Of a DNA stretch of 64,000 nt, positions 8,789 to 56,740 are shown one piece after another; the first letter of the stretch is position 1; each line of letters begins with the position of its first letter. The stretch covers positions 1-64,000 of the forward strand of contig NZ_FOAS01000008.1 of assembly GCF_900109735.1 (NCBI RefSeq). The letters are read 5' to 3'. The position numbers and the translations under genes were made by a program. Source of the stretch: Atopomonas hussainii (lineage in GTDB: Bacteria; Pseudomonadota; Gammaproteobacteria; Pseudomonadales; Pseudomonadaceae). Under the pieces are notes generated by a model. It saw only the letters and a list, made by a program, of their open reading frames with translations. It did not search any database and was not told where the DNA came from.

Positions 8789-9547
8789 ATGATTGAGTTG
8801 TTGGTCGGTGGTGTGATCACCCTTTTGGGGTTTCAAGAAACCGTTGAGAGCAAGCCGCAACCTCAAGGTGCGGTCGTTGTGAACTCTCAAACAGGCGCTA
8901 TGGCGCAGCGTGAGCGGGTTTCTCTGGAGCCTATGTCGCAGCTGCAATTCCGCAATGTGATTCGGCAAGCCTACGACTACAGCTGTGGTTCGGCAGCATT
9001 AACAACCTTGTTGGATTATTACCTAGGGATGAATCTTGAAGAGCGCCAAGTCATGGATGGCCTGTTGCGCTTTGGCGAGGTCGATAAGATTGTCGAGCGC
9101 CGAGGGTTCTCGTTGCTGGATATGAAGCGTTTCGTCGGGGCTTTAGGTTACAAAAGTGGCGGTTTTAAAGCTGGTTTTGAAGACTTGGCAGGCCTAGAGC
9201 ACCCAGCCATCGTGCCTATTCACTATGCAGGCTTTAAGCATTTTGTGGTGGTTCGTGACGTTTATAACGACCATGTTTTTGTTGCTGATCCTGCGCTGGG
9301 TAATATCAGTTTTACAGCGGCACGCTTTCAAGAAGTGTGGGACGAAAATATTCTTTTTATCGTGTTTCCCAATGAGGCGCCGCTGAACAGTGCTATGGCA
9401 TTGAGCGATAAAGATTTGCGCATCCTGGACGATCGCACGGTGAACTGGCTGGCTTTTCGCGAGTTTCCGCAGATTACCAAGTTCATGGAAAACGAGGCTG
9501 ACGAGCTAAGCTCGGGCGGCGATAAGCATTACATACGTCGCAAATAA
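8789..9547 (+). CDS. C39-family peptidase-like protein (FapD/FilB-like)
   Basis: A papain-fold C39 peptidase-like protein of 252 residues. The motif RQAYDYSCGSAAL places the candidate catalytic Cys at 66, with His151 in FKHFVVV and Asp168 in VADPALG, so the triad looks complete. A short hydrophobic N-terminus (residues 4-15) suggests membrane attachment or export. C39 domains usually cleave after GG in leader peptides. FapD of the Pseudomonas functional-amyloid system is a stand-alone C39-like protein needed for fibre export. No ABC transporter domains are attached here. Its substrate is inferred to be the DUF6160 protein encoded just upstream. Confidence 0.82.
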   Translation: MIELLVGGVITLLGFQETVESKPQPQGAVVVNSQTGAMAQRERVSLEPMSQLQFRNVIRQAYDYSCGSAALTTLLDYYLGMNLEERQVMDGLLRFGEVDKIVERRGFSLLDMKRFVGALGYKSGGFKAGFEDLAGLEHPAIVPIHYAGFKHFVVVRDVYNDHVFVADPALGNISFTAARFQEVWDENILFIVFPNEAPLNSAMALSDKDLRILDDRTVNWLAFREFPQITKFMENEADELSSGGDKHYIRRK

Positions 9548-9592
9548 CTCCGGCGTAAATAACGATAAGAAAGTGGTCTGGGGGATGGATCA

Positions 9593-10597
9593 ATGATGCA
9601 GCGATTTCTCGCTGGCATGCTGGCTGTAGCATGCCTGGGCAGTCTGCCAGTACAAGCCGATGAAACGTCTACCGACAAGGCGCGTGATGCTTTGGCGAAG
9701 AAAGCTGATGATGCTGATACCGAAAAGGCGCTTGAAGAGGTCTTTCAGGCTGCGGAAAAAAGCTACACCTTGTTGAAAAAAGGTGAGCGCACGTTAACCT
9801 TTGCGGCCGATTATTCGTTAGTGCGCGACACTCTGATTGAAACTGTTCGGCAAAACGGCAATGTGTATAGCGTGGTAGGCCGTAGCGAAGCGCAGCATAC
9901 GTTCACCAATTCATTTACATTCGACTACGGTGTTTGGGATAACCTGACATTCAGCGTTCGCTTACCTTTGGTGGCTAAATACGATACAGGTCGCGATCTC
10001 AATCGTTATAGCATTGGTGATGTTTCCACAAGTGCGCGCTGGCAGCCCTGGGAAGCTGTACGTGGTAAGCCAGTTTATACATTGTATGGCACGTTGAGCC
10101 TGCCTACGGGTGATAGCCCTTACGATATTAATCCGGATAATGATCTGTCCACCGGCTCTGGATTTTATAGCTTAGGCTTTGGTCTTAATGCTAGCTACAT
10201 TATTGACCCTGTGGTGCTGTTTGGTTCGGCAGGTTATACCTACAACATGAAGATCAGCGACGTTGATCAGGTGCGCAGTGGGCGCTTGTTGAATGATGTT
10301 GATCCTGGTGACACCTTGTCGTTCAGTGCAGGTTTTGCTTATTCCCTTTCTTACGATGTCTCTTTAAGTGCTTCTTATCAGATGTCGCACTCGCTAAAAA
10401 CCAAATACACCTTTGCCGATGGCTCTGTAGAGGGCGCTGAAGCGACCAGTGCGATAATGAACTTTGCCCTTGGTGTGCGTACCGATCCAGATACGATTGT
10501 TAACGTGAATGCCGGGTTTGGTATGACCGAGGATTCGCCGGATGTCTTGCTGGGTATTTCCATGCCCATCGACATCAAAGGCCTGAAGTCAGAGTAG
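9593..10597 (+). CDS. Outer-membrane beta-barrel protein with N-terminal helical segment (FapF/FilC-like)
   Basis: A secreted protein of 334 residues. The signal peptide (1-22, ending VQA) is followed by a charged helical stretch at about 24-66, with many A, K, D and E residues and coiled-coil potential. After that come alternating amphipathic strands typical of a small outer-membrane barrel of the 'transporter' type. An N-terminal helix plus barrel is the plan of FapF, the Fap amyloid export pore; homology to FapF is not established here. ATG 9593 follows GGGGG at 9580-9584. It is followed after 8 bp by the FadL-like gene. Confidence 0.7.
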   Translation: MMQRFLAGMLAVACLGSLPVQADETSTDKARDALAKKADDADTEKALEEVFQAAEKSYTLLKKGERTLTFAADYSLVRDTLIETVRQNGNVYSVVGRSEAQHTFTNSFTFDYGVWDNLTFSVRLPLVAKYDTGRDLNRYSIGDVSTSARWQPWEAVRGKPVYTLYGTLSLPTGDSPYDINPDNDLSTGSGFYSLGFGLNASYIIDPVVLFGSAGYTYNMKISDVDQVRSGRLLNDVDPGDTLSFSAGFAYSLSYDVSLSASYQMSHSLKTKYTFADGSVEGAEATSAIMNFALGVRTDPDTIVNVNAGFGMTEDSPDVLLGISMPIDIKGLKSE

Positions 10598-10605
10598 GGG
10601 GCTGC

Positions 10606-12198
10606 ATGACACATTTAGCGGCCCGTTTGCTGACGGGGTTGGGGAGTCTCTGCCTGTTTGTTGGCGTGGCTCATGCGCAATTGGCGCAAAACTTAACTAT
10701 CGGCAACCCTAAGGCTATGGCCTTAGGTAATGCGATTACCGCTGACTCTAGTGGTATCGACGCAGTGCATTACAATCCTGCGGCACTAACTAAGCTCAAA
10801 GGTCGGCAGACTCAAATGAAGCTGCTGACTGGTATTATGGATATTCGGGCTAAGTTCGATGCGCCTGCAGGTTATGGACGTAACTTCTTTGGTTACACCA
10901 ATGATGATGTTGCTGGTAAAAGTAGTAGGACCACTACCCCAGCAATGTATTTGCCGGGCTTTGGTGGTTTAACTGAGATGCCTGTATTGGCGGCACCCTT
11001 GGCTGGTATTTCAGTTAACCCGCCTGGTTCTAAGTTTACTTTTGCTACCAATGTTTATGCCCCGCAAGCGCTGGGTTTTTCGCGGGATGATGACGATGAC
11101 CCGGCGCGCTATCAGGGGCGCAAGGTGGCTATTCAGCGGATTACTTATTTGTCCCCTTCGGTCGCTTATCAAATGAATGATGAGCTGTCGTTTGGTCTGT
11201 CGGTGGGTTTTTCTCATCAAGCGATGGCGCTTAACCAAGATTTTCGTGCGCCGGGGCCGCTAACAGGGGTTACTCAGCTGTTTGGTGATGTTTTTAAGGC
11301 CGGTGTTTGCGCGACGCCCATTACTATCTTGGTAAATTTCTGTGGGGCATCGTTGGGGCCATTTACAAATATGGCTAATCTGGACTTGGACTTGCAGCAA
11401 AAAATGGCACCTTCATGGAATGTTGGTGTGCTTTGGGAGCCGGTTGACTGGTTTGCTTGGGGGGCTACTTACCAGAGTGAGTCGCGAATGCACTTGCAAG
11501 GTAAGTACAGGGTAGACTATTCGCATAACTGGCAGAGTTTCTGGAGTGCATTTAATTCGGCCTTGTTGCCGCAATTTATTCCTATTTTTCCTAATGGCGC
11601 TGTTGATGAGGAGCGGGGTTCGGCATCTCTTGACTTAACCTACCCGGATCACTTCTCTACTGGCATAAAGTTCAAGCCTCATGATGATTGGCAGGTTAAC
11701 TTAGATCTTAAATGGACCGATTACGCTGATTGGAATGAGTTTACGATTGAGTTTGATCGAGAGCTTGATATGTTGAGGATCGCAAAGGTCTTTTCTTCTC
11801 AAACGGCGACAAGTAGTAGCATTACACTGGATCGTGGCTACGAATCGGTATGGAGCTGGGCCCTAGGTGTGCAATATGACGTTAATGAGCGCCTTTCTTT
11901 GCGTGCGGGCTATGAGCCGCGGCCATCATCAATTCCTGGAAATAAAGCAGATGTGCTGGCCCCGGTAGGGGATGCAGTGTTGTACGGATTAGGGATGGGC
12001 TACCGCTGGGATAAGGACACAGTTATTGATGTGGGGTTTAACTACTTTGTTAGTGAACAGGATATCCCTGCAGGTACTAGCTGTAATGTGAACTGTTCGG
12101 GTATTGATAAAATAGTCTACAACCCCTACGCCGATCTGGACGTGAAAACCAAAACCACTGCCTACATAATGGCCATTACCTATCGCACCACGTTCTGA
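10606..12198 (+). CDS. OmpP1/FadL-family outer-membrane protein
   Basis: An outer-membrane beta-barrel of 530 residues. The signal peptide (1-24, VAHA) is followed by the FadL-like hatch sequence GNPKAMALGNAITADSSGI and HYNPAALTKL. FadL/TodX proteins move hydrophobic molecules (fatty acids, aromatics) across the outer membrane, but members in secretion-type loci may do something else. Base composition is visibly more AT-rich than in neighbouring housekeeping genes, for example around 11520-11760. It ends 8 bp before the next start, so the genes are co-transcribed. Confidence 0.85.
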   Translation: MTHLAARLLTGLGSLCLFVGVAHAQLAQNLTIGNPKAMALGNAITADSSGIDAVHYNPAALTKLKGRQTQMKLLTGIMDIRAKFDAPAGYGRNFFGYTNDDVAGKSSRTTTPAMYLPGFGGLTEMPVLAAPLAGISVNPPGSKFTFATNVYAPQALGFSRDDDDDPARYQGRKVAIQRITYLSPSVAYQMNDELSFGLSVGFSHQAMALNQDFRAPGPLTGVTQLFGDVFKAGVCATPITILVNFCGASLGPFTNMANLDLDLQQKMAPSWNVGVLWEPVDWFAWGATYQSESRMHLQGKYRVDYSHNWQSFWSAFNSALLPQFIPIFPNGAVDEERGSASLDLTYPDHFSTGIKFKPHDDWQVNLDLKWTDYADWNEFTIEFDRELDMLRIAKVFSSQTATSSSITLDRGYESVWSWALGVQYDVNERLSLRAGYEPRPSSIPGNKADVLAPVGDAVLYGLGMGYRWDKDTVIDVGFNYFVSEQDIPAGTSCNVNCSGIDKIVYNPYADLDVKTKTTAYIMAITYRTTF

Positions 12199-22928: not shown

Positions 22929-23516
22929 TTACCAGCCCTTAACCCCGCTCATGTCTGGCAGCTCGTGGGCGATGCCCTTGTGGCAGTCGATACAGGTGGC
23001 TTCGCCGCTGGCCAAGGCAGTGGAGTGCTGCTCCATGGCGCGTTTGCTTTGGCGGGTGAAGTCCATGTAATCGAAGTTGTGACAGTTACGGCACTCCAGC
23101 GAGTCGTTGGCTTTTAAACGTGCCCATTCGTGCTCGGCCAGCTCGCGACGTTTCTCCAGAAACTTCTCGCGGGTGCTGATGGTGCCGAAGATCTTGCCCC
23201 AGACTTCTTTCGAGGCCTGCATTTTGCGGGCGATCTTGTCGGTCCAGTTGTGTGGCACGTGGCAGTCTGGGCAAGTGGCGCGCACGCCAGAGCGGTTGCT
23301 GTAGTGGATGGTGGTTTTCATCTCTTCAAAGACGTTGTCACGCATCTCGTGGCACGAGGTACAGAACTGCTCAGTGTTGGTCACTTCGAGGGCGGTGTTG
23401 AAGCCACCCCAGAAGATGATCCCGGCGATAAACCCGCCGAGGGTTAAAAACCCAAGGCTGTAGTGCACGCTGGGGCGGCGCAGAATCTGCCAATAGCTTT
23501 TCAGTAGTTCCCACAT
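22929..23516 (-). CDS. napC: Tetrahaem cytochrome c NapC
   Basis: A NapC/NirT-family membrane-anchored cytochrome of 195 residues that passes electrons from quinol to periplasmic NapAB. One N-terminal membrane helix (about 18-40) precedes four CXXCH haem sites at residues 52-56, 82-86, 142-146 and 175-179. It is the last gene of napEDABC, 11 bp after napB. No napF, napG or napH follows; the next gene is amtB beyond a terminator. Confidence 0.95.
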
Positions 23517-23527
23517 GGTACGGCTCC

Positions 23528-23995
23528 TTACGGCTGGCTGGCGCCGCCCTCAAGCACCTGATCAATGTTCTTGAAGGTGTTGGGGATGGCAGCAGGCGTC
23601 TCGTGCTGGGGCACATGGCACTGTTCGCAGAAGTAGCGGCGTGGCGACACAGTGGCCAGCGGTTGCCCGTCACGGTCCATGTAGTGGGTAATGCTGATCA
23701 TCGGTGCCTGCGACTTAGCTGCAGTCGAGCGGCTGTGGCAGCTCAGGCACTTGTTGCTGTTGGTGTCGACCCGATAGCCGTCGATCTTGTGTGGAATGGT
23801 CGGCGGTTGCTCGGGGTAGTTACGCTCGCGCTTTAAGTCTTTGTTTTCCACCTTGGGCATTTCTTCTGCTTGCAGCTCTTGGGCGATGGTGCCGCCTAGG
23901 CGGCGGCCATCAGGAGCTGGCGCGTCGAGGCTTTCAGCCACGGCGCCCCAAGACAGCAAGCCCATGCAGGCGGCAATGAGTAGGTGCTTTTTCAT
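23528..23995 (-). CDS. napB: Dihaem cytochrome c NapB, periplasmic nitrate reductase small subunit
   Basis: A protein of 155 residues with a Sec signal peptide (about 1-20, AVA). Two CXXCH motifs (CLSCH 83-87, CEQCH 123-127) bind the two haems that relay electrons from NapC to NapA. Upstream histidines such as those in IPHKIDGY and SITHYMD are candidate distal ligands. It starts 11 bp after napA. Confidence 0.95.
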
Positions 23996-24006
23996 CGTGG
24001 GCCTCC

Positions 24007-26502
24007 TCAGACGATGGCTTCAATCTTGACCGCGCACTTCTTGAAGTCGGTCTGTTTGGAGATAGGGTCAGTGGCGTCCAGCGTCAGCTTGTTAACCAAA
24101 CGCTTGGCGTCGAAGAACGGCACGAAGATCAAGCCCTGCGGCACCTTGTTACGGCCACGGGTTTCAACACGGCCACGCATTTCGCCACGACGGGTGGTGA
24201 GCATGACTTCGCTGCCACGACGCACATTGAGCTTCTTCGCGTCATCGGGGTGCATGTACACCAAGGCTTGCGGCACGGCTTTGTGCAGCTCGTCCACGCG
24301 GTCGGTCATCGAGCCGGTGTGCCAGTGCTCGATCACGCGGCCAGTACACAGCCAGAACGGGAAGTCGGCATCGGGTGCTTCTGGCGGCGCCTCGTAGGGA
24401 AGGGCGAAGATCAGTGCCTTGCCATCGGGCTTGCCGTAGAACTCAAAGCCTTTGCCGGGCTTCACGTACGGGTCATGCCCTTCGGCGTAGCGCCATTTGG
24501 TTTCTTTGCCATCCACTACCGGCCAACGCAGGCCACGAGAGTTGTGGTAGGTGTCGAAGTCCGCTAAGTCGTGGGCATGGCCGCGACCGAACTCGGCGTA
24601 CTCTTCGAACAGGCCTTTTTGCAGGTAGAAGCCAAAGGCATCGGCTTCGTCGTTGGCGTAGCCTTCGGCGATGTCTTCTTTGCCAAAGGCATTCACCTTG
24701 CCGTTGGCGAACAGTACGTCGAACAGGGTCTTGCCTTTGAAGTCAGGGTTCTTGTCCAAAAGCTCAGCCGGCCACACTTCGTCGGTGGTAAAGCGCTTGG
24801 AGAATTCCACCAGCTGCCAAAGATCGCTCTTGGCATCGCCCGGGGCTTTAACCAACTGATGCCAGAACTGGGTGCGGCGTTCGGCGTTGCCGTAGGCACC
24901 TTCTTTTTCTACCCACATGGCGCTGGGCAGAATCAGGTCGGCGGCTTGGGCGGAGACAGTCGGGTAGACGTCCGACACCACTACAAAGGCCTCTGGGTTG
25001 CGCCAGCCGGGCAGAATTTCTTCCATCACGTTGGGGCCGGCCTGCATGTTGTTGGTGACTTGCGTCCAGTAGAACTTGATCTCGCCGTCTTTCAGCTTGC
25101 GGCTTTGCAGCACGGCGTGGAAGCCGAGTTGATCCTGAATGGCACCGGCCGGCAGCTTCCAGATTTTTTCTGCTTTGGCGCGGTGCTCGGGGTTGGCGAT
25201 CAGCATGTCGGCCGGCAGGCGATGGGCAAAGGTGCCCACTTCGCGAGCGGTGCCGCAGGCAGACGGCTGGCCAGTCAGCGAGAAGGGGCTGTTGCCCGGC
25301 TGGCTGATTTTGCCGGTCAGCAGGTGAATGTTGTAAATCAGGTTGTTCACCCACACACCACGGGTGTGTTGGTTGGCGCCCATGGTCCACAGCGACATGA
25401 CGCGAATATTCGGGTCGGCATACAGCTTGGCCAGCTTCTCTAGGCGCTCAGCCGGTACACCGGACTCTTTCGCCGCGCGGGCCAAGGTGTAGGGCTTCAC
25501 AAACTCGGCGAACTGCTCCAGCGAGTAGGGTTCCCAAGTGTTGGCTTTTTCGGCGTTTTTCGCCCGTGCTTCCAGCGGATTGGTGGGGCGCAGGCCGTAA
25601 CCGATGTCTTCCGCGCCTTTGACAAAGTTGGTGTGCTTGGCGACAAAGTCTTTGTCGATGGCGTCGTTTTCAATCAGGTAATTGGCGATGTAGTTGAGGA
25701 TCACCAAGTCGGTGTGCGGGGTGAACACCATCGGGATGTCGGCCAGCTCAAAGCTGCGGTGCTCGTAGGTAGAGAGCACAGCCACTTGAGTGTCCGGCGC
25801 CGACAGACGACGGTCGGTGATGCGCGTCCACAGTACCGGGTGCATCTCGGCCATGTTCGAGCCCCACAGCACAAAGGCGTTGGCGTGCTCGAAGTCGTCA
25901 TAGCAGCCCATGGGCTCGTCCATGCCGAAGGTGCGCATAAAGCCCATCACCGCGGATGCCATGCAGTGGCGCGCGTTGGGGTCGATGTTGTTGGAGCGCA
26001 AGCCAGCTTTATACAGCTTGCTCGCTGCGTAGCCTTCCCACACGGTCCACTGGCCGGAACCGAACATGCCCACGCTGTTGGGACCGTGGTTTTTCAGGGC
26101 GGCTTTGACCTTCTCGGCCATGATGTCGAAGGCTTGGTCCCAGCTGACTTCGGCAAATTCGCCGTTCTTATCGAACTTACCGTCTTTCATGCGCAGCAGC
26201 GGCTTAGTCAGGCGGTCTTTGCCGTACATGATCTTCGACAGGAAGTAGCCCTTCACGCAGTTAAGGCCGCGGTTCACTTCGGCCTTAATGTCACCGTGGG
26301 TCGCAACCACTTGGTTGTCTTTGGTGGCGACCATCACGCTGCAACCGGTGCCACAGAAACGACACGGCGCCTTGTTCCACTCCATTTGCGTTTGATCACT
26401 GCTGGTGATCAGGTTGCTGGCCTCAACCAGTGGGATTCCGGCAACGGCAGCCGCAACGGCGCCGGCCTGAGCTTTGGCAAAATCTCGGCGTGTCAGTTTC
26501 AT
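24007..26502 (-). CDS. napA: Periplasmic nitrate reductase catalytic subunit NapA
   Basis: A molybdopterin (bis-MGD) nitrate reductase of 831 residues. The twin-arginine signal TRRDFAKAQ directs folded export. The 4Fe-4S site is CRFCGTGC (Cys47, 50, 54) with Cys82, and Cys180 in [12 protein letters not shown] is the expected Mo ligand. ATG 26502 overlaps the napD stop as ATGA, which fixes the start and explains coupled translation with the NapD chaperone. A TTG nine bases upstream is not preferred. Confidence 0.96.
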
Positions 26503-26768
26503 GGTGTGCAACCTTCTGTTTCTTCGACAGGGGCTATTTCGTGATAGATCAGCGCCGCGCTGAGCACGCTGGGCTGGGCGTTGAGGGCGTCTAGGTAGTC
26601 AGCAATGCGTTTCTCGTGGTCGCTTTCGCAGACCAACACCAATTTGCCTTGCGGGCTTTGGCTGTGAACTTCGACGTGGGGCAGGGTCAAGGCAAAGGCC
26701 TTAACCGCTTCCAGCGCGCTAGGCTGGCTGTGGACCAGTAGGCTGGCGATATGCACGGTATGGGGCAT
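26499..26768 (-). CDS. napD: NapA signal-peptide chaperone NapD
   Basis: A small cytoplasmic protein of 89 residues with a ferredoxin-like fold. It binds the NapA twin-arginine signal and holds back export until cofactor insertion. The N-terminus [19 protein letters not shown] and the overall length match NapD. It overlaps napA by four bases and follows napE by 45 bp. Confidence 0.9.
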
Positions 26769-26813
26769 GGAGCTTCTCCGGCTCTCTATTATTGATAGTG
26801 GTTTGCTGGGCGG

Positions 26814-26972
26814 TTAGGCACCGGGTGGGCCGGTGAGGATCTGCATAATCCAGATCAGAAAGCCGTAGCCGCCAACCAGTGCGACCGACAGCAAAGGAAA
26901 GAAGCAAACAATCAAAAACAGAAACAGCCGGGTTTCTTTTTGTTTGTTGGCAGCGGTATCACCTGCAGGCAT
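26814..26972 (-). CDS. napE: NapE, small membrane protein of the nap operon
   Basis: A 52-residue gene, easily missed because of its size: MPAGDTAANKQKETRLFLF, then a hydrophobic helix through FPLLSVALVGGYGFLIW, ending TGPPGA. The KETRLFLFL start, the LLSVALVGGYGF helix and the GPPG tail are those of NapE proteins. NapE has one membrane span and no firmly known role. GGAGAACC lies just before the ATG. It is the first gene of the operon, directly downstream of an FNR-type box. Confidence 0.9.
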   Translation of the reverse strand: MPAGDTAANKQKETRLFLFLIVCFFPLLSVALVGGYGFLIWIMQILTGPPGA

Positions 26973-26987: not shown

Positions 26988-27001
26988 TTGATTCCAATCA
27001 A
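26988..27001. promoter_or_regulatory. Perfect FNR/ANR-type box in the nap-kinase intergenic region
   Basis: TTGATTCCAATCAA is an exact match to the TTGAT-N4-ATCAA consensus. It lies only 16 bp before the napE ATG. If transcription starts about 41 bp below the second box (27041-27054), this site would sit just downstream of the start and would more likely repress nap than activate it. It could also act on the divergent kinase gene from about -95. Confidence 0.85.
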
Positions 27002-27040: not shown

Positions 27041-27054
27041 ATGACCTGGATCAA
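27041..27054. promoter_or_regulatory. Imperfect FNR/DNR-type box, likely nap activator site
   Basis: Read leftward this is TTGATCCAGGTCAT: one perfect half site and one degenerate half. A leftward -10-like TACATT (27014-27019) puts the box centre close to -41, the standard position for class II activation by FNR-type regulators, with a leader of about 35 bases to napE. Rightward, a GATACA at 27080-27085 would give a similar geometry for the kinase gene. Direction is inferred, not shown. Confidence 0.55.
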
Positions 27055-27130: not shown

Positions 27131-30100
27131 ATGGCGGACAACCAGCAGGGGGCCGCAGACGCTAAGTCGATGCGCCACTTGCTTAACGAGTTGCAAAGCA
27201 GTCACCAACAGTTGCAGCGTCAGCTGCGGTTAAGTGCGCTGATCACCCGTTTGCAGGCGCGTTTTATTAACGAACAAGATGCCGATCAGCTGTTTGGTAG
27301 TCTGCTGAATGATCTGTTGGATATCACCGCCAGCGAATACGGCTTTATCGGCGAGATAAAGCACGATGCCCAAGGCGCACCGTATTTGCGCACCTATGCC
27401 CTGAGCGACATCGCTTGGGATGAAGCCACGCGGCGTTTTTATGATGAAAACGCCCCGCAAGGCTTAGAGTTCACCAACCTCAACACCCTGTTTGGGCACA
27501 CCGTGGCGACTGGTGAGGCGGTGATCACTAATGACCCAGCCAAGCACCCGAAAAGCGGCGGCTTGCCGCCGGGGCATCCGGCGCTGAAGGCTTATCTGGG
27601 CATTCCGCTGCGCTGTGGTGATACGCTGGTAGGCATGGTGGGCTTGGCCAATCGGGCCGAGGGCTATGATCAGACACTGCTGGATTTTCTCGCTCCGCTG
27701 ATCAGTACCATTGCGCACATTGTTGAAGCGTTTCGCGCTTCCCGTGAGCGTGATCGGTATCAGGCTCGCTTAGAGCAGTCCGAAGCGTTTAACCGCAGCG
27801 TGTTAGACACCGTGGTCGACGGCATTATCACCATCGACCCGCAAGGCGTGATCGCCAGTTTTAACCCCGCCGCCACGCGCATCTTTGGCTACAGCGCTGA
27901 TGAGGTGCTGGGACGCAACATCACTATGTTGATGCCCGAGCCCTACCGCAGCGCCCATGACGGCTACTTGCTGCGTTACCTGCAAACCGCGCAGCGACAC
28001 ATTATCGGCATCGGTCGTGAGGTTGTTGGCCTGCGTAAAGACGGCAGCGAGTTCCCCCTAGAGCTGGCGGTGAGCGAGGTCAAACTCGGCGGGCAGCACT
28101 TTTTTATTGGTGCGCTGCGCGACATCAGCCAGAAGAAAGCCCAACAAGCCGCTATTGAAGCGCGCGATGAATACTGGCAACGCTTGACCGAGCGTATTCC
28201 CGGTGCTGTGTATCAATTTCGCTTAAGCGCCACTGGCGAACAGCGGGTGGTCTATGCCAGTAAAGGCTTTAACCGCTTGATGGGCATGCCGAGTGCGGAT
28301 ACCAACAAGCACAGCTTAGAAGCGCTCATGCAGCGTATTCATCCGGATGACCATGCAGCGCTGCTCAGCTCTATCCAAGCGTCGATGGCCGAGCACAAAG
28401 ACTGGCATTTGGAGTTTCGCGTTGTGCACCCCAATGGCGAGGTACGCTGGCTGCGCGGTGACTCCTCCATCGACAGTGAAGGCGAGGGTAACTTCAGCTG
28501 GTACGGCTTTTTGATGGATATCACTGCCAGCCGCGAACAACAGGCCGCCTTGGCACAGAGTGATCAGCGTTGGCAATTCGCCTTGACCGGCTCCGGCGAT
28601 GGTATTTGGGACTGGGATTTGCGCAGCGGCACTGTGTATTACTCGCCGCAGTGGAAATCCATGCTCGGTTATGCCGAAGAGGACATCGGCGACGGCTTAG
28701 AAGACTTCGAGCAGTTGATCCACCCGGATGATCACGACAGCTTATTCGCCGATGTGCAGCGGCATTTGTCCGCTGAAACACCCGTGTTCGAGCATGAAGT
28801 GCGCCTGCGCGGCAAAGACGGCCGCTACCGTTGGATACTCGATCGCGGCATGGTGGTCGAGCGTGATGCCGCCGGCCAAGCGCTGCGGGTGATTGGCACG
28901 CACACCGACATTACCCCGCTTAAAGCCAACGAACAGACGCTGCGCCACGTTAACGCGCAGTTGCAGAACCTGATCAATTCGGCGCCGCTGGTGTCGATTA
29001 TCGCCACTGACCCGCAAGGGCTGATCACTACTTTCAGCTACGGAGCCGAGCATTTGCTGGGCTATGCCGCCGAAGAAATGGTCGGTGTGCAAACGCCCGG
29101 CCTCTTTCACTTGCCCAGTGAAGTCGCCAAGCGTGGCCGTGAGCTGTCACTTAAGCTGGGGCGGCCCATCGAAGGCTTTGAGGTATTTGTCGCACTGCCG
29201 GCGCTGAACCAGCCCGAACAGCGCCGTTGGACTTACGTGTGCCGCGATGGTCGGCAGGTGCCGGTTAACCTCAACGTTAGCGCCATGCGCGATGAACAAG
29301 GCACCTTGACCGGCTTTCTCGGCATTGCCACCGACATCAGCGAGCAAGTGCAGGCCGAAGTGCAGGCCAAACACAGTATGGCGCGCCTGCAAAGCGCCTT
29401 GGCCGAGGCCAATCGCTTAGCGCTGATCGTTAGTCGTACCAGCAATGCGGTGGTGCTGACCGACGCGCAAGGCCTGACCGAGTGGGTTAACCCTAGCTTT
29501 GAACACGTCAGTGGTTACAGTTTGGCGGAACTCAAAGGGCAGAAGCCTGGCAAGGTCTTGCAGGGCCCGCAAACCGATGCCAACACGGTGGCACGCATCA
29601 GCAAAGCGTTGAAAGCTGGGCAGGGCGTGCGCGAGGAGATCCTCAACTACCACAAGCAAGGGATGCCGTACTGGTTGGACATGGAAATTCAACCTGTGCG
29701 TGATGAGGCTGGCCGTGTCACAGGGTTTATGGCCATTGAAACCGACATTACTGCCAGCAAACAGGCTGCCGAGGCGCTGCAAAAAGCCAATGCGCGTACC
29801 GAGAGCCTGCTGGAGGCCATGCCAGACTTAATCTTCGAGCTAGACGCGCACGGCATCTGTCTGGATTACCGCGCTCCCGACCCCAGTTGGCTCACGGTGG
29901 CGCCGCAAGACTTCTTGCATAAGCACTTTTCGCGTTCGTTGCCGGTTGACGTTGGCGAACAGTTGGCAAAAGCCATCGACGCGGCGCGCACCGACGGGCA
30001 AAGCCGTATTGCTGCCGAGTACTCTCACGCCGATCGCAAAGGGCTGGAGCATGACTGGGAAGTGCTGGTTTCGCCGCAGCACACCGGCGGCGTGGTGGTG

Positions 30101-31618
30101 ATTATTCGCGACATCAGTGAACGCAAACGTATGGAGCGGATGAAAAATGAGTTTGTCTCGACCGTCTCGCACGAGCTGCGTACCCCGCTGACGTCTATTC
30201 GCGGCGCTTTGGGTTTGATCAACGGCGGTGCATTGGGCGAGTTGCCAGCCAAAGCGGGCGATATGCTGCGCATGGCGCTGGCTAACAGTGAGCGCTTGAG
30301 CTTGCTGATTAACGACTTGCTGGATATGGACAAAATTGCCTCCGGCAAGATGGATTTCCATCTAAAACCGATTCAATTGCATCAATTGCTGGCCCAGTCG
30401 GTCGCGGCCAACCAAGGCTACGCCGACAGCTGTCAGGTGCGCTTTGTTATCACACAGGTTGACGAGGGGCTGTGGGTCAATGGCGATGAAGATCGCTTGA
30501 TGCAAGTGCTGGCCAATTTACTGTCTAACGCCGCTAAGTTTTCTCCGCCTAATAGCTGTGTAGAACTGTCGGTGAGCTGTAATGGCGAGCGTTTGCGGGT
30601 GAATGTGCAAGATTATGGTCAAGGTATCGCCGAGGCTTTTCAGGGGCGGATATTCCAAAAGTTCTCCCAGGCCGATTCATCCGATACGCGGAAAAAAGGC
30701 GGCACCGGGCTGGGTTTGGCCATCAGCAAGGCGATTATTGAACGGCATGCCGGCGAGATTGGTTTTACCAGTCAGCCGGGGCAGGGCAGTTGTTTCTATT
30801 TCGAGCTGCCGCGTATGGATGCCCTAAGCCCAATGGCGGGCGAGCCCGATGCCGACATTATCTTTTGCACCGTTGACCCCAATGCTGCGCAGGCCTTGCG
30901 TGAGCAGTTAAGTAGCTACGATTACCAGGTGCAGTGGCTTAGCCCCGAAGCATTGTGTCGTTCAAAGCGTTTGCCTGCTAATAGCGTGCTGTTGATCGGC
31001 GCCAAAGCCCGCGAGCAACTCACACAAGTCGATCGCGAATATGTTGAAGCGCGCTTTGCCGACGTGCCGGTTCTGCTGGTCGGTGATGTGGTCGAAAGCC
31101 AAGTGGAGCAATGGCCCAGCACGCCGGTGGTGCTGAATTGGTTACAGCGGCCCTTCACCGATCAGCGTGTGCAGCGCTTGTTAGGCTGGATCACCCAACA
31201 GGTGGACGGCCGCGTGCAGTTGCTGCACGTCGAAGATGATGCCGATGTCGCCTCTTTGATAAGCCAGCTGTGTGAGCCTTTTGCTGATGTGCAGGTGGCT
31301 GCCTCTTTGGCCGAGGCTCGTCAGTGTTTGAGTCAGCAGCGATTTGATGTGCTGGTATTGGATCTGGGTTTGCCTGATGGCCGGGGTGGCGACTTGCTGG
31401 CTGATATCCAAGCGCTGCCGACACCGCCGGAGATTTTATTGTTCTCCGCCCAGCAGCCGCAGGCGGGGGAGCAGGCGCAAGCCACTGAAGTGCTTATCAA
31501 AGCAGCCACCAGCAATAACCGCTTGTTGCAAGTGTTGCATCGACTGGTCAAGAGCCACCGGCGCCGCTACGCTCAAAACAGTGACGCCATGAAACCATCA
31601 GGCAAGGAGCAGGTATGA
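27131..31618 (+). CDS. GAF/multi-PAS hybrid histidine kinase with FixL-like haem PAS
   Basis: A predicted cytoplasmic kinase of 1495 residues with no membrane spans. Order: GAF (about 45-200), six PAS modules (about 218-340, 341-470, 475-600, 605-740, 760-880, 885-1000), HisKA with His1014 in SHELRTPL, HATPase (NLLSNAAKF, GGTGLGLAI), a degenerate receiver (about 1240-1350) and a real receiver with Asp1411. The first PAS contains MPEPYRSAHDGYLLRY and HIIGIGRE: His276 and Arg296 are 20 residues apart, exactly as the haem ligand His200 and O2-gating Arg220 of Bradyrhizobium FixL. Haem O2 sensing is therefore a reasoned inference. It is divergent from nap and overlaps the next gene by 4 bp. Confidence 0.88.
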   Translation: MADNQQGAADAKSMRHLLNELQSSHQQLQRQLRLSALITRLQARFINEQDADQLFGSLLNDLLDITASEYGFIGEIKHDAQGAPYLRTYALSDIAWDEATRRFYDENAPQGLEFTNLNTLFGHTVATGEAVITNDPAKHPKSGGLPPGHPALKAYLGIPLRCGDTLVGMVGLANRAEGYDQTLLDFLAPLISTIAHIVEAFRASRERDRYQARLEQSEAFNRSVLDTVVDGIITIDPQGVIASFNPAATRIFGYSADEVLGRNITMLMPEPYRSAHDGYLLRYLQTAQRHIIGIGREVVGLRKDGSEFPLELAVSEVKLGGQHFFIGALRDISQKKAQQAAIEARDEYWQRLTERIPGAVYQFRLSATGEQRVVYASKGFNRLMGMPSADTNKHSLEALMQRIHPDDHAALLSSIQASMAEHKDWHLEFRVVHPNGEVRWLRGDSSIDSEGEGNFSWYGFLMDITASREQQAALAQSDQRWQFALTGSGDGIWDWDLRSGTVYYSPQWKSMLGYAEEDIGDGLEDFEQLIHPDDHDSLFADVQRHLSAETPVFEHEVRLRGKDGRYRWILDRGMVVERDAAGQALRVIGTHTDITPLKANEQTLRHVNAQLQNLINSAPLVSIIATDPQGLITTFSYGAEHLLGYAAEEMVGVQTPGLFHLPSEVAKRGRELSLKLGRPIEGFEVFVALPALNQPEQRRWTYVCRDGRQVPVNLNVSAMRDEQGTLTGFLGIATDISEQVQAEVQAKHSMARLQSALAEANRLALIVSRTSNAVVLTDAQGLTEWVNPSFEHVSGYSLAELKGQKPGKVLQGPQTDANTVARISKALKAGQGVREEILNYHKQGMPYWLDMEIQPVRDEAGRVTGFMAIETDITASKQAAEALQKANARTESLLEAMPDLIFELDAHGICLDYRAPDPSWLTVAPQDFLHKHFSRSLPVDVGEQLAKAIDAARTDGQSRIAAEYSHADRKGLEHDWEVLVSPQHTGGVVVIIRDISERKRMERMKNEFVSTVSHELRTPLTSIRGALGLINGGALGELPAKAGDMLRMALANSERLSLLINDLLDMDKIASGKMDFHLKPIQLHQLLAQSVAANQGYADSCQVRFVITQVDEGLWVNGDEDRLMQVLANLLSNAAKFSPPNSCVELSVSCNGERLRVNVQDYGQGIAEAFQGRIFQKFSQADSSDTRKKGGTGLGLAISKAIIERHAGEIGFTSQPGQGSCFYFELPRMDALSPMAGEPDADIIFCTVDPNAAQALREQLSSYDYQVQWLSPEALCRSKRLPANSVLLIGAKAREQLTQVDREYVEARFADVPVLLVGDVVESQVEQWPSTPVVLNWLQRPFTDQRVQRLLGWITQQVDGRVQLLHVEDDADVASLISQLCEPFADVQVAASLAEARQCLSQQRFDVLVLDLGLPDGRGGDLLADIQALPTPPEILLFSAQQPQAGEQAQATEVLIKAATSNNRLLQVLHRLVKSHRRRYAQNSDAMKPSGKEQV

Positions 31619-32001
31619 GCGAATTGCAGCGCGTGCTGTACGTTGAAGATGAGCCCGATATTCAAGCCGTGGCCAAGCTGGCGCTTGAGGTGGTGGGCGG
31701 ATTAACCGTGCAGGTGTGCTCCAACGGCGATGAAGCGCTGTCCAGTGCGCCGGGCTTTGCCGCCGACTTGCTGCTGTTGGATGTCATGATGCCCGGCATG
31801 GACGGCCCCACCACCCTTGGCAAGCTGCGCCAGCTAGCGGCCTATGCCGACACCCCGGCCGTTTTTATGACCGCCAAAGTGCAGCCCAGTGAAGTGGCGC
31901 ACTTGAAGTCGCTCGGCGCGCTAGAAGTGATCGCCAAACCCTTCGACCCCATGAGTTTAGCCACCACCCTAAAGCAGCTGTACGCGAGCACCCAAGCATG
32001 A
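31615..32001 (+). CDS. Single-domain response regulator (REC)
   Basis: A stand-alone receiver of 128 residues, with acidic pair Glu11-Asp12, phosphoacceptor Asp56 in [10 protein letters not shown], and Lys in IAKPFDP. There is no output domain, so it probably carries phosphate between the hybrid kinase and the Hpt domain of the next gene, or acts by protein contact. Four-base overlaps on both sides (ATGA) show tight translational coupling. Confidence 0.92.
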
Positions 32002-33671
32002 GTGATGAAGACGCCAAGCGGGCGTTTATGCAACAGCAGTTGGCTCAGCTACGCGGCGATTTTCTGCGCCGCCTGCCAGAGCGCATGCGTGAGATTGAGC
32101 TGAACTGGAATGCCCTCACCGAGCAATGGGACAGCGAAAAAGTAGAGGTGATGCACCGCGATATTCATACCCTGATAGGCACCAGCGGCACCTTCGAGCT
32201 GATGGAGCTATCGCGTGGCGCGCGCGCCTTTGAGCGGTTAATCAAACTGCAAATGGAGTTCGATGAGGCACCTTCGCCAGAGCTGCTAGCCACCATGCGC
32301 AAGTCGCTGGGGCAAGTGCTAAAACTGGCCCGGCAAACCCTGCAAGATCACGAGCAAGCCTTGAGCGAGCAACAGCCCGAGTTACCTCCGCGCGCCGTAC
32401 AGCCCGAGCCTGAGCGAGTGCGGGTGCCCTTGGTATTTTTGGTTGAAGATGAGCGCGCCCAAGCAGAGTTGTTGGCCAGTCAATTGGGTCAGTTTGGCTA
32501 TGAGATTGTGGTCTTTAACGACCTGCCCAGCATGCTGGCTGAGTTGCCTAACCGCCGGCCGCACGTGGTGGTGATGGATATCGTGCTGCCTAACTGCAAA
32601 GAAGCGCAGGTGTTTTCCTTAGCGCGGCAGTTTATTGAGCAAAAAGTGCCGGTAGTAGCGATTTCTGGCAAGGCTGATTTTGCTACTCGCTTGGCGGCAG
32701 CCAGGGTGGGCATGGCAGGCTACCAGACCAAGCCAATCGATTTGATAAGCCTGGTTAATCGACTCGACAGGTTGACCAACCGTGTGCCCGAGGCACCGTA
32801 CCGGGTATTGATTGTCGATGACCAGCGCGCTGTAGCCACCTACCACGCCGCCGTGCTGGAGCAAGCAGGCATGCGGGTACGTACCGAAATGAACCCGCTG
32901 CAAGTCATGGCGGTATTGGATGAGTTCAGCCCGGATGTGATCGTTAGCGACGTGTACATGCCCAGCTGTAGCGGTATCGAGCTGGCGGCGGTGTTACGTC
33001 AACAAGAGGTCTTCGACCACATCCCGATTGTGTTTTTATCCGGCGAGCAGGATGTCGATAAGCAAATCTCGGCCCTAGGCTTTGGCGCCGATGACTTCAT
33101 CGTTAAGCCTATCGTGCCGGAGCGTTTTGTTTCCGCGATTAGCGCTCGCGCGCAACGGGCCCGCACTCTCAGTGCGGTGATGACGCACGATGGTTTAACT
33201 GGGCTGCTGAATCACAAAAACATCAAAGCGGGGGTGGATAAAGAGTTCTCGCGTGGCTTGCGTGGCAGCAGCCCAGTGGTGATCGCTTTGATCGATATCG
33301 ACCACTTTAAGTCGGTGAACGATACCCACGGGCACCCCACTGGTGATCGCGTCTTACGCGGTTTGGCGCACTTGATGCGCCAGCGCTTACGCAGCACCGA
33401 TTACATAGGTCGTTACGGCGGTGAGGAGTTTTTAGTCGTGCTGCCGGACACCACCCTAGAAGCCGCCGAGAAAGTGCTTAATCAGCTGCGTGAGGCCTTT
33501 GCCTGTTTGCTGTATCAAGGCGAGCAGGGCGAGTTTTCCGCCACCTTTAGCGCCGGTGTGGCGCAAACCTGCAATTACCCGGATTCAGGCAGCACCATTA
33601 AAGCCGCCGACGAGGCCTTGTATGCCGCTAAAGAAGGCGGCCGTAACCAAGTGCGCGTAGCCAAATCTTAA
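31998..33671 (+). CDS. Hpt-REC-REC-GGDEF diguanylate cyclase
   Basis: A protein of 557 residues. An N-terminal Hpt-like domain has candidate phospho-His57 in [11 protein letters not shown]. Next come receiver 1 (about 145-260, Asp194), receiver 2 (about 268-385, Asp318 in SDVYMP) and a C-terminal GGDEF domain with intact GGEEF (474-478) and inhibitory I-site RSTD (465-468). It should make c-di-GMP under phosphorelay control with product feedback. It completes the three-gene cassette with the PAS kinase. It ends 15 bp from the convergent metR stop with no terminator between them. Confidence 0.92.
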
Positions 33672-38385: not shown

Positions 38386-38419
38386 AAAAAACCCGGGTTC
38401 TGGGGGATGAATCCGGGTC
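38384..38419 (-). terminator. Probable terminator of the leftward aminotransferase-fold gene
   Basis: Read leftward, ACCCGG (38413-38418) pairs with CCGGGT (38391-38396) and is followed by a run of eight T residues (the A-run at 38384-38390 on the plus strand). It lies about 175 bp beyond the stop of the gene ending at 38593. The region between is non-coding and holds a repeated ACGGTAC. Confidence 0.6.
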
Positions 38420-38592
38420 AAGACCATTAGGAGTGAAACAACGGTACACGATCCACGGTACCTAAAACTGGCCGGGCACTTGGGGGGGTATGCCGCGCAC
38501 CAGTGACTTTAAGTATTGGCCAGATAGCTGGTTTTTCCAGCGTTTTTAAGATGGATTGGTAATAGATCGCAGCTGTTTGAGTCGCAACGGCT

Positions 38593-50956: not shown

Positions 50957-52470
50957 GCACGCCCGAGCCGCGCCCACAGTGGGCGAGTCTATTGTTGGCA
51001 GCCAGCACCGCCAGTCGTCAGGCTTATCAGCAGCATATGCAGGGTGCCTTGCAGGCGGTGGATGAGCATTTGTTGGCGCCGCCGCAGATTTACTCGGGGA
51101 TTACCCCGCAAGCCTTAGCCGAACAATTGGCGCGCTTGCCGATGTGCCCGGAACACGGCGTGCCGCTGGCGCAAGTCACCGACGAGGCCGGGCGCCTGCT
51201 GTTGGCCAACAGCGTGCGGGTGCATCAGCCCACCTGTGTGGCGCACCTGCATTGCCCCACGCTGCAGGCCGGGCAGGTTGGCGAGGTCTTGTTGGCCAGT
51301 GCCAACCAGTCGCTGGACTCGTGGGATCAAAGCCCGGCGGCCAGCGTGCTGGAGCAACAACTGTGCGATTTTCTTGTGCAGTTGGCTGACCTGCCGGCTA
51401 CTGGCGATGGGGTGTTCACCGCCGGGGGCACGCAAAGCAACCTGATGGGTCTGTTGTTGGCGCGCGACCTGTATTGCCAGCGCGCGTTTAACCGCGATGT
51501 GCGCGTGCACGGCCTGCCGCCTGAGGCGCAGCAGCTGCGCGTGTTGTGTTCGGAGAAAGCGCATTTCTCGGTGCAGCAAAGCCTGTCGCTACTAGGCTTA
51601 GGCGCCGAAGCGGCGCTGCCGGTAGCCGTAGGCGCAGACCAGCGCATGGACATGCGCGCAGTGCGCGACACCTTGGCCGCCAGCCTGGCGCGTGGTGAGC
51701 GACCGTTTGCGCTGTTTGCGACCGCCGGCACCACCGACGCCGGGGCGATTGACCCGCTGCCGGAGCTGGCCGAGCTGGCCGCCGAGCATGGCCTGTGGCT
51801 GCATGTGGATGCCGCGTGGGCCGGTGCGGCGCTGTTGTCGCACAGCCTCAAGCCGCGCTTGGCCGGTATCGAACGGGCCGATTCGATCACCTTGGACTTC
51901 CACAAGCAGTTCTATCAGCCGATCAGCTGCGGGGCGTTCTTGCTGCGCGATCGGGCGCACTTTGCCCTGATGCGCCTGAATGCCGACTACCTAAACCCGC
52001 TGGAAGACGAAGCCGACGGCGTGCCCAATCTGGTCTACAAGTCGCTGGCCACCACTCGGCGCTTCGACGCCCTAAAACTGTGGCTGAGCCTGCGTAGCGT
52101 CGGCCGCGCCGAGTTGGCGGCGATGTTCGAGTATGGCGTGGCGCTGGCTCAAGCAGTGGCGGCGGATATTCAGCAGCGCCCGGAGTTGGAGCTGGGCTTT
52201 GCGCCGCAGCTCAATGCCGTGCTGTTGCGTCACCGTGGCCACGGCGGTGAAACCCCCGCTGCGCTCGATGCACTCAATCGGCACTTGGCCCAGCAGCTGT
52301 TTGAGCGCGGCTTGGCCAATCTCAGCACCACGCGCTTGCGCGGTGCGCAATTTATCAAGATGACCCTACTCAACCCGCTGACCACCTTGGCTGATCTGCA
52401 AGCGGTGTTGGACGCCCTGTGTGCTTTGGCCAAGGGCAAGGTCGGCGAACGTGAGGTTTCCTGTGTTTAA
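50953..52470 (+). CDS. L-2,4-diaminobutyrate decarboxylase (RhbB/Ddc-like)
   Basis: A group II PLP decarboxylase of 505 residues that converts 2,4-diaminobutyrate to 1,3-diaminopropane. ATG 50953 overlaps the aminotransferase stop and gives [24 protein letters not shown] holds the ring-N Asp; [12 protein letters not shown] holds the PLP lysine; [15 protein letters not shown] is the phosphate loop. A longer open frame upstream overlaps the aminotransferase gene and is not the start. Confidence 0.9.
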
Positions 52471-54244
52471 AGATGCTGCCGAACGCCTGAGTGTGCAGGC
52501 GTTGTTGAACTGTTATTGGCGTGAAACAGGCTTAGGCACTGTGCAGGCGGTGAGCGAACTGCCCGCACCGCTGGCGGCCCGCTTGGCCACCACGCATTGC
52601 ATGGCGCTGACCTTGCAGCCCTTGGCGCAACCGGTGTGGGTGCCGCTCAGTTATGTCAGCCCCACGGGGCGACATCGCATTGGCGAGGCGGTATTCAGTA
52701 TCGGCGATGGCGGCTACTGCGCTTTGCCGGCGGCGCTGTTGTTCAGCTTGCTGCTCAGCGATTTGGCCGAGCGCTACCAAGGCGGCGCGCTGCCGGCGGA
52801 GTCGGCGGATATCCTCGGCCTGTGCCTGCAAAGTCTGCAAAACATGCGTGGTTTTATCAGCAGCCGTGAGGCCGATATTGCCCAGCTGTATGGCCCTGAG
52901 CTGGATTTCTTCCGTGCTGAGCAAGGCCTGCTGATCGGCCATCAAACCCACCCAGCGCCGAAAAGCCGCAACGGTTTTACCGGTAGCGAGCTGGCCGCTT
53001 ACTCGCCAGAGGCGGCGGGGCGTTGCCAACTGCATTGGTGGCTGCTGGCGCCGGGCTTGGTTAAACAGCACGGCGTGTGGGCGAGCAGCCCCAGCAGCCA
53101 ACTGCGCGATTGGCTGACGGGGCAAGTCAGCCCGCGTGCGGCGGCTTTGCTGGCGGCAAACCCCAGCTGGGATGTGCTGCCGCTGCACCCATGGCAAGCA
53201 CGCCACCTGCTTGGGCGTGAGGCGATTGCCGCGCTGATCGAACAAGGCCAATTGCTCGACTTAGGCGAGCAGGGCCCGGCGTTGTGGCCGACCAGCTCGA
53301 TCCGCACCTTGGCTGCGCCCGGTGTGCCGTGGATGTTCAAGTGCTCGCTGTCGGTGGCGATCACCAACTCGGTGCGCATCAACCTGTTCCGCGAATGCCT
53401 GCGCGGCGAGCTGGGTTGTCGCTTGTGGCAAGGCCCGCTGGGCGACGAGTTAAAAGAACGTCTGCCGACCCTGCGCCCGGTGAATGACCCGGCCTGGCTG
53501 ACGCTGGAAATCGACGGCCAAGTGCTGGATGAGGCCACCTGCATTCTGCGTGACAACCCGTTTGCCGTGCAGGCGCAAGTCAGCTGTATGGCCATGCTCT
53601 GTCAGGATCACCCGCTGCAGCGCGGCAATCGCTTCTCGCAGCTGCTGCCGCAGTTGGCGCAGCGCGAAGGCATCAGCACGCAGGCGGCTGCCGAGCAGTG
53701 GTTTGCCGCATTTATTCGCGTGGCGGTCGAGCCCATGCTGACCTTGTACCTGGAATACGGCATGGCCTTTGAGGCGCACCAGCAAAACACCTTGCTAGAG
53801 CTAGAAAACCTCTGGCCGGCGCGTTTTTGGGTGCGCGATAACCAGGGCTTCTACTACATCGAAGAGCGCGCCCAGCGCGTGCTTGAGCTGCTCCCGGAGC
53901 TGGGCGGCGCGGCGGAATCGGTCGGCCCGCAGAGCTTCGTCGATGAGCGTTTTCACTACTACTTCTTCCACAACACGGTGTTCGGCCTGATCAACGCGCT
54001 GGGCCATAGCGGCCTGGCTGATGAGCACGCTTTGCTCGGCCAATTGCGTGCTGCGCTGACGGCCTTGGATGCGCGTTACCCCGGCAACAGCTTGCTGGCG
54101 CCGGTGCTACACGCGCCGACCTTGCCCTACAAGGGCAACCTGCTGACCCGTCTTGCCCAAATCGACGAACTGGTCGCGCCGCTGACCAGCCAATCGGTCT
54201 ACGTGGAGCTGCACAACCCGCTTTATGAGGTGAACCATGACTAA
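52463..54244 (+). CDS. IucA/IucC-family siderophore synthetase (RhbC-like)
   Basis: An NRPS-independent siderophore (NIS) synthetase of 593 residues that activates a carboxyl of citrate or a citryl intermediate by adenylation and couples it to an amine. The HPWQARHLL motif and TSSIRTLAAPGVPWMFKCSL region are characteristic, and the C-terminal part has the FhuF-like segment with HQQNTLLELEN. GTG 52463 has GAGG six bases upstream; GTG 52451 is an alternative. Start and stop overlap both neighbours by 8 bp. Confidence 0.88.
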   Translation: MFKDAAERLSVQALLNCYWRETGLGTVQAVSELPAPLAARLATTHCMALTLQPLAQPVWVPLSYVSPTGRHRIGEAVFSIGDGGYCALPAALLFSLLLSDLAERYQGGALPAESADILGLCLQSLQNMRGFISSREADIAQLYGPELDFFRAEQGLLIGHQTHPAPKSRNGFTGSELAAYSPEAAGRCQLHWWLLAPGLVKQHGVWASSPSSQLRDWLTGQVSPRAAALLAANPSWDVLPLHPWQARHLLGREAIAALIEQGQLLDLGEQGPALWPTSSIRTLAAPGVPWMFKCSLSVAITNSVRINLFRECLRGELGCRLWQGPLGDELKERLPTLRPVNDPAWLTLEIDGQVLDEATCILRDNPFAVQAQVSCMAMLCQDHPLQRGNRFSQLLPQLAQREGISTQAAAEQWFAAFIRVAVEPMLTLYLEYGMAFEAHQQNTLLELENLWPARFWVRDNQGFYYIEERAQRVLELLPELGGAAESVGPQSFVDERFHYYFFHNTVFGLINALGHSGLADEHALLGQLRAALTALDARYPGNSLLAPVLHAPTLPYKGNLLTRLAQIDELVAPLTSQSVYVELHNPLYEVNHD

Positions 54245-55550: not shown

Positions 55551-56740
55551 GCGCTGCGGGCATCAGCCCTTGGGTAAGCCGCACTTTATTGGCGTGCGGC
55601 TTCCTGTTTGTGTTTACCGAAACCTTGCTGTCGCCGTTTTGGCCGCAGTTCTTTCAGCGCGTGTTCGGTGTCGAGGCGCTGGAGGTCAGCGGCCATTACA
55701 TCGCCCTGTGCCGCCTTACCGTGCTGATCGGCGCGCCCTTGTGGGGCTTGCTAGCGCGGCGCTTCGAGCCCATGTGGCTGTTGATCATCGGGCAGGGCGG
55801 GGCAGCGTTGTTCACCTTGCTGTGCGCCTTTGTCGATAGCCTCGATGAGTTCGTGGTGTTGTCGGTGCTGCTGCTGCTGTGCAAGAGCAGCTACTTGCTG
55901 TTCTACAGCGTGCTGATCGAACTCAGCGGCCAGCGCGGTCAGGCACAAGTGGTTGGCCGGGTGCAGGCCACCGTGCATTTGGCGCTGATCAGCTCGACAG
56001 CCGCCAGCGCCTGGCTGCTGCAACTGGATAACCCGCTGCGCCTGTTTATGCTCGCTGCGGCGTTGGATGTGCTGCAAATCGTCCTGTGCGCCTTTGTGCT
56101 GAAACGCCGAGGCCCACGGCAAGCCGCTACGCCCAGTGCTGAACGGCGCCGGGTTTGGACCTGGCGTGCTGTGGGGGCCTTTGCCGCCGCCGTGTTGCTG
56201 TTCAATTTGGCCGGCAACGTGGTGCGCCCGTACTTCACCTTGTTCAGTCAGCAACAGTTGCACTTAGAGGCCTGGCCGGCGGCGGTGGCGTTCTTTCTGC
56301 CTTCGGTGATGGTGCTGTTATGCATGCCATGGGTGCCCACCTTGTGCCAAAGCGGTCTGCGCCGCGTGGGTTTTAGCGTCAGCGTGGCGCTGATGGCGCT
56401 GGCCTTGCTCGCTCAAGCGATGGCCGACAGTTACGCCGCCTTGCTGGCCGCGCGGGCCTTGTTTGGCGCTACGTTGCTGCTGGCGCAGGCCAATCTGGAG
56501 CTGCACCTGTTTGAAGGCGCCGGTGACGATGTGCACTGGCAATACAGCTTAGCCAGCGTGGTGCAGAACCTCGCACAACTCTTGGCCCCCTTGCTGGCCG
56601 CCGCGCTGGTCGCCGGCTACAGCTTGGCGAGCCCCTTTATCGCAGCCGCTGCCTTGCTGCTGCTCACACTTGTGATCGCTCATTACGGGGTGTTTGCCGC
56701 GCCGCGCCGCCCCCCGCCTGTAGGAGAACCAACCCCATGA
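55547..56740 (+). CDS. MFS transporter, probable siderophore exporter
   Basis: A major facilitator protein of 397 residues with about 12 hydrophobic segments. WGLLARRFEPMWLLI between helices 2 and 3 resembles the MFS loop. The GTG start overlaps the hydroxylase stop (GTGA), and the stop overlaps the next gene (ATGA). Its place inside the biosynthetic operon suggests export of the finished siderophore; import or release of iron is less likely but not excluded. Confidence 0.85.
   Translation: MSAAGISPWVSRTLLACGFLFVFTETLLSPFWPQFFQRVFGVEALEVSGHYIALCRLTVLIGAPLWGLLARRFEPMWLLIIGQGGAALFTLLCAFVDSLDEFVVLSVLLLLCKSSYLLFYSVLIELSGQRGQAQVVGRVQATVHLALISSTAASAWLLQLDNPLRLFMLAAALDVLQIVLCAFVLKRRGPRQAATPSAERRRVWTWRAVGAFAAAVLLFNLAGNVVRPYFTLFSQQQLHLEAWPAAVAFFLPSVMVLLCMPWVPTLCQSGLRRVGFSVSVALMALALLAQAMADSYAALLAARALFGATLLLAQANLELHLFEGAGDDVHWQYSLASVVQNLAQLLAPLLAAALVAGYSLASPFIAAAALLLLTLVIAHYGVFAAPRRPPPVGEPTP

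Follow-up and report, generated by a model that had tools for sequence, protein, structure and literature searches.

Haem PAS sensors in kinases and c-di-GMP enzymes

FixL is the haem-based oxygen sensor of root-nodule bacteria. In its S. meliloti and B. japonicum versions (SmFixL and BjFixL, respectively) the haem ligand is His194/His200, the propionates are contacted by Arg200/Arg206 together with BjFixL His214, the distal cover of SmFixL consists of Ile209, Ile210, Leu230 and Val232, and oxygen is bound by Arg214/Arg220 (PMC10765370). The Soret band of SmFixL is given there as about 434 nm for the deoxy, 418 nm for the oxy and 424 nm for the CO form. FixL and DosP fall together in PAS cluster 3 of Xing et al. 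2023, a cluster linked to histidine kinases and diguanylate cyclases in which haem binding depends primarily on the F-helix histidine; this residue is kept by more than 9,700 members (60%) and missing from about 40% (PMC10468136). Haem PAS domains of this type are already known to be common, and hybrid FixL kinases have already been characterised; the hybrid FixL (hFixL) of Rhizobium leguminosarum and R. etli acts in low-O2 signalling (PMC7888657), and for hybrid FixL kinases in rhizobia PMC4263535 cites Sousa 2013. A coupling of haem PAS domains to c-di-GMP is likewise on record, as DosP and AxPDEA1 are haem-PAS c-di-GMP phosphodiesterases (PMC4263535).

The window (the whole 64-kb stretch of DNA analysed here) encodes a hybrid histidine kinase whose first PAS domain, PAS1, is probably a FixL-type haem-b O2 switch, heading a phosphorelay to a GGDEF protein that would set c-di-GMP. 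The probability of this reading is put at about 0.7. The kinase and its principal domains are located as follows:

27131-31618, plus strand: hybrid histidine kinase, 1495 aa, ATG start (ORF, Pfam)
27275-27727, plus strand: N-terminal GAF, residues 49-199 (Pfam, alignment, model)
27791-28132, plus strand: PAS1, predicted FixL-type haem PAS, residues 221-334 (Pfam, alignment, HMM, AF2 model)
30140-30346, plus strand: HisKA, residues 1004-1072, H-box SHELRTP, phospho-acceptor His1014 at 30170-30172 (Pfam)
30482-30814, plus strand: HATPase_c catalytic domain, residues 1118-1228 (Pfam)
31223-31516, plus strand: C-terminal REC, residues 1365-1462, phospho-acceptor Asp1411 (Pfam)

By Pfam the domain order is GAF, PAS1, several further PAS domains (matching PAS_3, PAS_4 and PAS_9), HisKA, HATPase, a degenerate REC-like region and REC. 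FixL has its ligand, propionate, distal-wall and switch residues and its fold in common with PAS1, but the protein encountered here is a hybrid kinase, with a GAF domain before PAS1 and several PAS domains between PAS1 and HisKA. Like hFixL, it is a receiver-bearing hybrid kinase with a FixL-type PAS (here PAS1 and HisKA/HATPase/REC); however, hFixL acts on FxkR and the transcription of fixK, whereas the operon in the window encodes a receiver and a diguanylate cyclase. Assignment of the kinase as the FixL of a FixLJ system is ruled out, both by its score against the FixL equivalog model (300 bits, far below the cut-off of 850) and by the receivers of this genome, among whose 64 matches none exceeds the FixJ cut-off. 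The kinase would be FixL-like at its sensor end and a c-di-GMP phosphorelay at its output end. No full-length orthologue was found at E 1e-150 in 119 genomes of the family.

PAS1 and the FixL haem pocket

The region that the earlier note had put forward as a FixL-type haem PAS (27785-28155, residues 219-341 of the hybrid kinase ORF) aligns without gaps to both rhizobial proteins, at 54.8% identity over 115 residues for SmFixL and 46.7% over 122 residues for BjFixL, the two FixLs being 58.3% identical to one another over the same 115 residues. Its best sequence matches in the PDB (phmmer) are SmFixL (1d06, E 2.3e-38) and BjFixL (1dp6, E 6.5e-35), followed by DosP. Because the alignment is free of gaps, the 20-residue spacing between His276 and Arg296, previously likened to that of BjFixL His200 and Arg220 and confirmed here, is due to homology, and its origin as a coincidence is ruled out over these 115-122 residues. 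An HMM was built from SmFixL and BjFixL only, and its His and Arg columns were masked. It gave PAS1 139 bits, which puts the domain at about the eleventh place among the 322 PAS stretches of the retrieved loci; the other PAS stretches of the kinase scored 12 bits or less. Given this ranking, a chance resemblance of PAS1 to FixL can be regarded as excluded on sequence grounds, and PAS1 is the only FixL-like member among the PAS domains of the kinase. The residues corresponding to the FixL pocket are encoded at these positions:

27956-27958, plus strand: codon of His276 (BjFixL His200), proposed proximal haem ligand (alignment, model)
27974-27976, plus strand: codon of Arg282 (BjFixL Arg206), haem-propionate contact (alignment)
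27998-28000, plus strand: codon of His290 (BjFixL His214), haem-propionate contact (alignment)
28001-28006, plus strand: codons of Ile291 and Ile292 (SmFixL Ile209 and Ile210; BjFixL Ile215 and the next residue), distal wall (alignment)
28016-28018, plus strand: codon of Arg296 (BjFixL Arg220), O2-switch arginine (alignment, model)
28058-28072, plus strand: Leu310-x-Leu312-x-Val314 (BjFixL Met234, Leu236 and Ile238), distal wall (alignment)

Every pocket residue that PMC10765370 lists for FixL thus has an identical or conservative counterpart in PAS1, including the proximal histidine of helix F (at the His200 position), the switch arginine of strand G (at the Arg220 position), the hydrophobic distal wall and both propionate contacts. 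The pairing of Ile291 with BjFixL Ile215 holds, with an Ile-to-Arg distance of 5 residues, and to the three residues recognised earlier the alignment adds Arg282, His290, Ile292, Leu312 and Val314. Among the relatives tabulated the Arg282 position is most often Asn, so that PAS1, with arginine, stands nearer at this position to the rhizobial FixLs than many of them do. With cluster 3 (Xing et al. 2023, PMC10468136) PAS1 shares the F-helix histidine, and no feature of PAS1 was found that sets it apart from that cluster.

A structural model of PAS1 was predicted by AlphaFold2 with 62 relatives added to the window's own sequence, but with neither FixL sequences nor templates; it has a mean pLDDT of 87 with its lowest confidence in the F-G loop. 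Superposition on the BjFixL PAS domain, a check that the earlier note had proposed, yielded a VIA Z of 21.3 and an rmsd of 0.8-0.9 A over 113 residues against BjFixL haem domains. Model residues 16-128 superpose on FixL residues 154-266, and this offset of +138 brings His276 onto His200 and Arg296 onto Arg220, in agreement with the sequence alignment. In the fold ranking (VIA) FixL (Z 20-21) precedes DosP (about 17) and LOV/NifL domains (15.3 or lower); identification of PAS1 as a LOV or FAD PAS is ruled out by these lower scores.

In the proposed mechanism His276 would ligate the haem iron, Arg282 and His290 would hold its propionates, and Ile291, Ile292, Leu310, Leu312 and Val314 would wall its distal side, while Arg296, as alignment and model suggest, would swing to bound O2 and so switch PAS1. 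O2 occupancy may then alter HisKA activity by way of the downstream PAS domains. It is unlikely, though conceivable for such a pocket, that PAS1 binds haem but senses redox, CO, NO or haem availability and not O2: NO and CO also bind FixL-type haem pockets (the best structural matches of PAS1 include 1dp8 and 1lsv), the periplasmic nitrate reductase (Nap) encoded next to the kinase reduces nitrate, and the cell may meet NO. Against this, PAS1 keeps both Arg296, the counterpart of the switch arginine that hydrogen-bonds specifically to O2 in FixL, and the Ile291/Ile292 pair, and the SmFixL mutation I209M is known to lower O2 affinity greatly (PMC10765370). We therefore prefer O2 as the ligand, which we infer along with the direction of the kinase response and the c-di-GMP output.

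Covariation and natural loss of the haem residues

Further insight into the His/Arg pair was provided by a second masked HMM, whose seed included the window sequence. Both residues are present in 71 of 74 FixL-like domains scoring at least 120 bits, and lowering the threshold to 60 bits gave 117 domains with both, 20 with His only, 10 with Arg only and 18 with neither, an association with a Fisher p of 2e-7 that is uncorrected for relatedness of the sequences. On a tree built without the His and Arg columns His was lost 11 times and Arg 13 times. Three of the Arg losses fell on the same branch as a His loss, as against about 0.4 expected (p 0.007); the excess indicates that the two residues are coupled, though not strictly. 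In alignment A1 the sequences had been chosen for the presence of His and Arg, and their invariance there is no evidence. Together with the sequence match, the full pocket set and the predicted structure, covariation strongly supports the earlier prediction of a FixL-type haem PAS, and haem binding and O2 sensing by PAS1 are very likely.

The same family of domains offers the material for an opposing argument, namely that PAS1 has the FixL fold and residues yet carries no haem in vivo and serves only for dimerisation and relay. Related GAF-bearing kinases of the family genomes (loci L104-L109) have a FixL-like PAS lacking both His and Arg (RARYL...GKEIEL), and most of these genomes also carry the receiver and cyclase module described below, so the fold is evidently used without haem in homologous kinases of this family, in keeping with the sizeable His-lacking fraction of the published cluster. 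As the closest GAF-matched family kinases lack both residues, haem sensing is not essential to the GAF-PAS kinase architecture, and these domains form what appears from their sequences to be a natural haemless comparison for PAS1. In PAS1 itself, however, all named pocket residues are kept, Arg282, His290 and Arg296 among them with no obvious non-haem role, and those relatives that score strongly but lack His have lost Arg too, which renders a haemless PAS1 distinctly unlikely. A limited literature search returned no report of FixL-like PAS domains failing to bind haem, which proves little.

The N-terminal GAF domain raises the question of a second haem. Its His149 (codon at 27575) aligns with the residue that ligates haem in mycobacterial DosS, likewise His149, but a Gly occupies the position of the distal DosS Tyr171. 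Nearly all of the 21 distinct GAF relatives compared share this His and Gly, and the GAF model is about as close to phosphodiesterase GAFs as to those of DosS/DosT. A second haem would thus be possible but is not indicated, and we consider highly improbable a dual-haem kinase in which the GAF (through His149) and PAS1 both bind haem, read different gases or O2 ranges and feed one c-di-GMP-setting phosphorelay of the widespread kinase/receiver/Hpt-REC-REC-GGDEF module. The GAF and the other PAS domains of the kinase may carry other signals.

A probable c-di-GMP module downstream of the kinase

Two genes follow the kinase, each start overlapping the preceding stop:

31615-32001, plus strand: CheY-like single receiver with phospho-acceptor Asp56 (ORF, Pfam)
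31998-33671, plus strand: Hpt-REC-REC-GGDEF diguanylate cyclase with Hpt His57, REC Asp194 and Asp318, RxxD I-site and GGEEF; start overlaps the receiver stop (ORF, Pfam)

Phospho-acceptors, the RxxD I-site and the GGEEF motif are all intact across the kinase, receiver and cyclase. Gene order alone suggests that phosphate may pass from His1014 to Asp1411, on to the CheY-like protein and thence to the Hpt and REC domains of the GGDEF protein, and operon structure and intact catalytic residues suggest that oxygen level would in this way govern c-di-GMP production. The third gene resembles PleD in its REC-REC-GGDEF order, intact Asp residues and I-site, but has an extra N-terminal Hpt and scores 213 bits against the PleD equivalog model, below its cut-off of 474. 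DosP, which ranks after FixL in both sequence and fold searches with PAS1, offers a parallel in linking haem PAS to c-di-GMP, yet in DosP and AxPDEA1 the PAS lies inside the enzyme that removes c-di-GMP, whereas the kinase in the window would be linked by phosphorelay to a GGDEF enzyme.

Homologues of the Hpt-REC-REC-GGDEF gene occur in 32 of 229 gammaproteobacterial genomes (counting the window's own), and comparison by hand placed a FixL-like PAS within 10 kb of the cyclase homologue in at least 17 of the 38 places listed from other genomes. An upstream kinase with a FixL-like PAS was present in 23 of 31 such loci examined, a proportion biased by the fact that these loci were partly chosen for such a PAS. 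When His and Arg were looked for by a simple pattern, 16 loci passed, at least one of them (L105) by chance match, since in the alignment it has lost both sites. FixL-like PAS domains as such (E 1e-20 or better) were found in roughly one in three of the genomes sampled from the family and the class, often beside this cyclase module. The recurring neighbourhood is therefore a multi-PAS kinase, a CheY-like receiver and an Hpt-REC-REC-GGDEF protein, often with a FixL-like PAS in the kinase, and does not include nap. Because this is the unit that recurs, and judging from the operon structure and intact catalytic residues, the likely output of the kinase system would be c-di-GMP rather than nap transcription, and the kinase probably lets the cell couple oxygen level to c-di-GMP. 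If so, a canonical FixL haem switch heads a c-di-GMP phosphorelay in a bacterium of the Pseudomonas family, and understanding a single module of this type would help to show how many gammaproteobacteria tie oxygen to c-di-GMP decisions such as biofilm and motility. A second Hpt-REC-REC-GGDEF protein is encoded in the same genome (L140, G000:C42:31057-32640), with no same-strand kinase homologue within 9 kb upstream.

The nap genes and the intergenic region

Divergent from the kinase lie the periplasmic nitrate reductase genes napE-napD-napA-napB-napC (22929-26972, minus strand), separated from the kinase start by about 160 bp:

26814-26972, minus strand: napE
26499-26768, minus strand: napD
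24007-26511, minus strand: napA
23528-23995, minus strand: napB
22929-23516, minus strand: napC
26988-27001, strand not assigned: FNR/Anr-type box TTGATTCCAATCAA, perfect, in the nap-kinase intergenic region

This box is the only perfect FNR/Anr copy in the 64-kb window. A second one with two mismatches is found at 27041-27054 in the same intergenic region, where a consensus search found no promoter-like site.

The earlier note had argued that divergence from nap makes an O2 sensor sensible. The divergence itself stands, but the functional argument is weak, because 20 nap-bearing relatives lack a homologous kinase module in the region of up to about 14 kb upstream of napA, where some of them carry a smaller two-component pair, and because no homologous module examined elsewhere adjoins nap. 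Control of nap transcription by the kinase system is possible, adjacency being the only positive evidence for it. As a specific proposal, that O2 or nitrate input to the kinase controls the divergent nap genes, it gains from the short divergent gap with its perfect FNR/Anr box, but the box suggests that Anr already gives O2 control, the kinase operon holds no DNA-binding output (its outputs being a single receiver and a GGDEF protein), and the lack of a FixJ above the family cut-off extends to the whole genome, so that together with the 0/20 count among relatives a nap-specific regulator appears very unlikely.

Elsewhere in the window, a putative pilus system is represented at 8789-12198 by FilB- and FilD-like genes, below curated cut-offs, and a siderophore-like cluster at 52421-59145 comprises a histamine N-monooxygenase-like protein and two partial siderophore synthetase matches, all below curated cut-offs as well. 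The small RNA RgsA, a Pseudomonas marker, is located at 38393-38579 on the minus strand.
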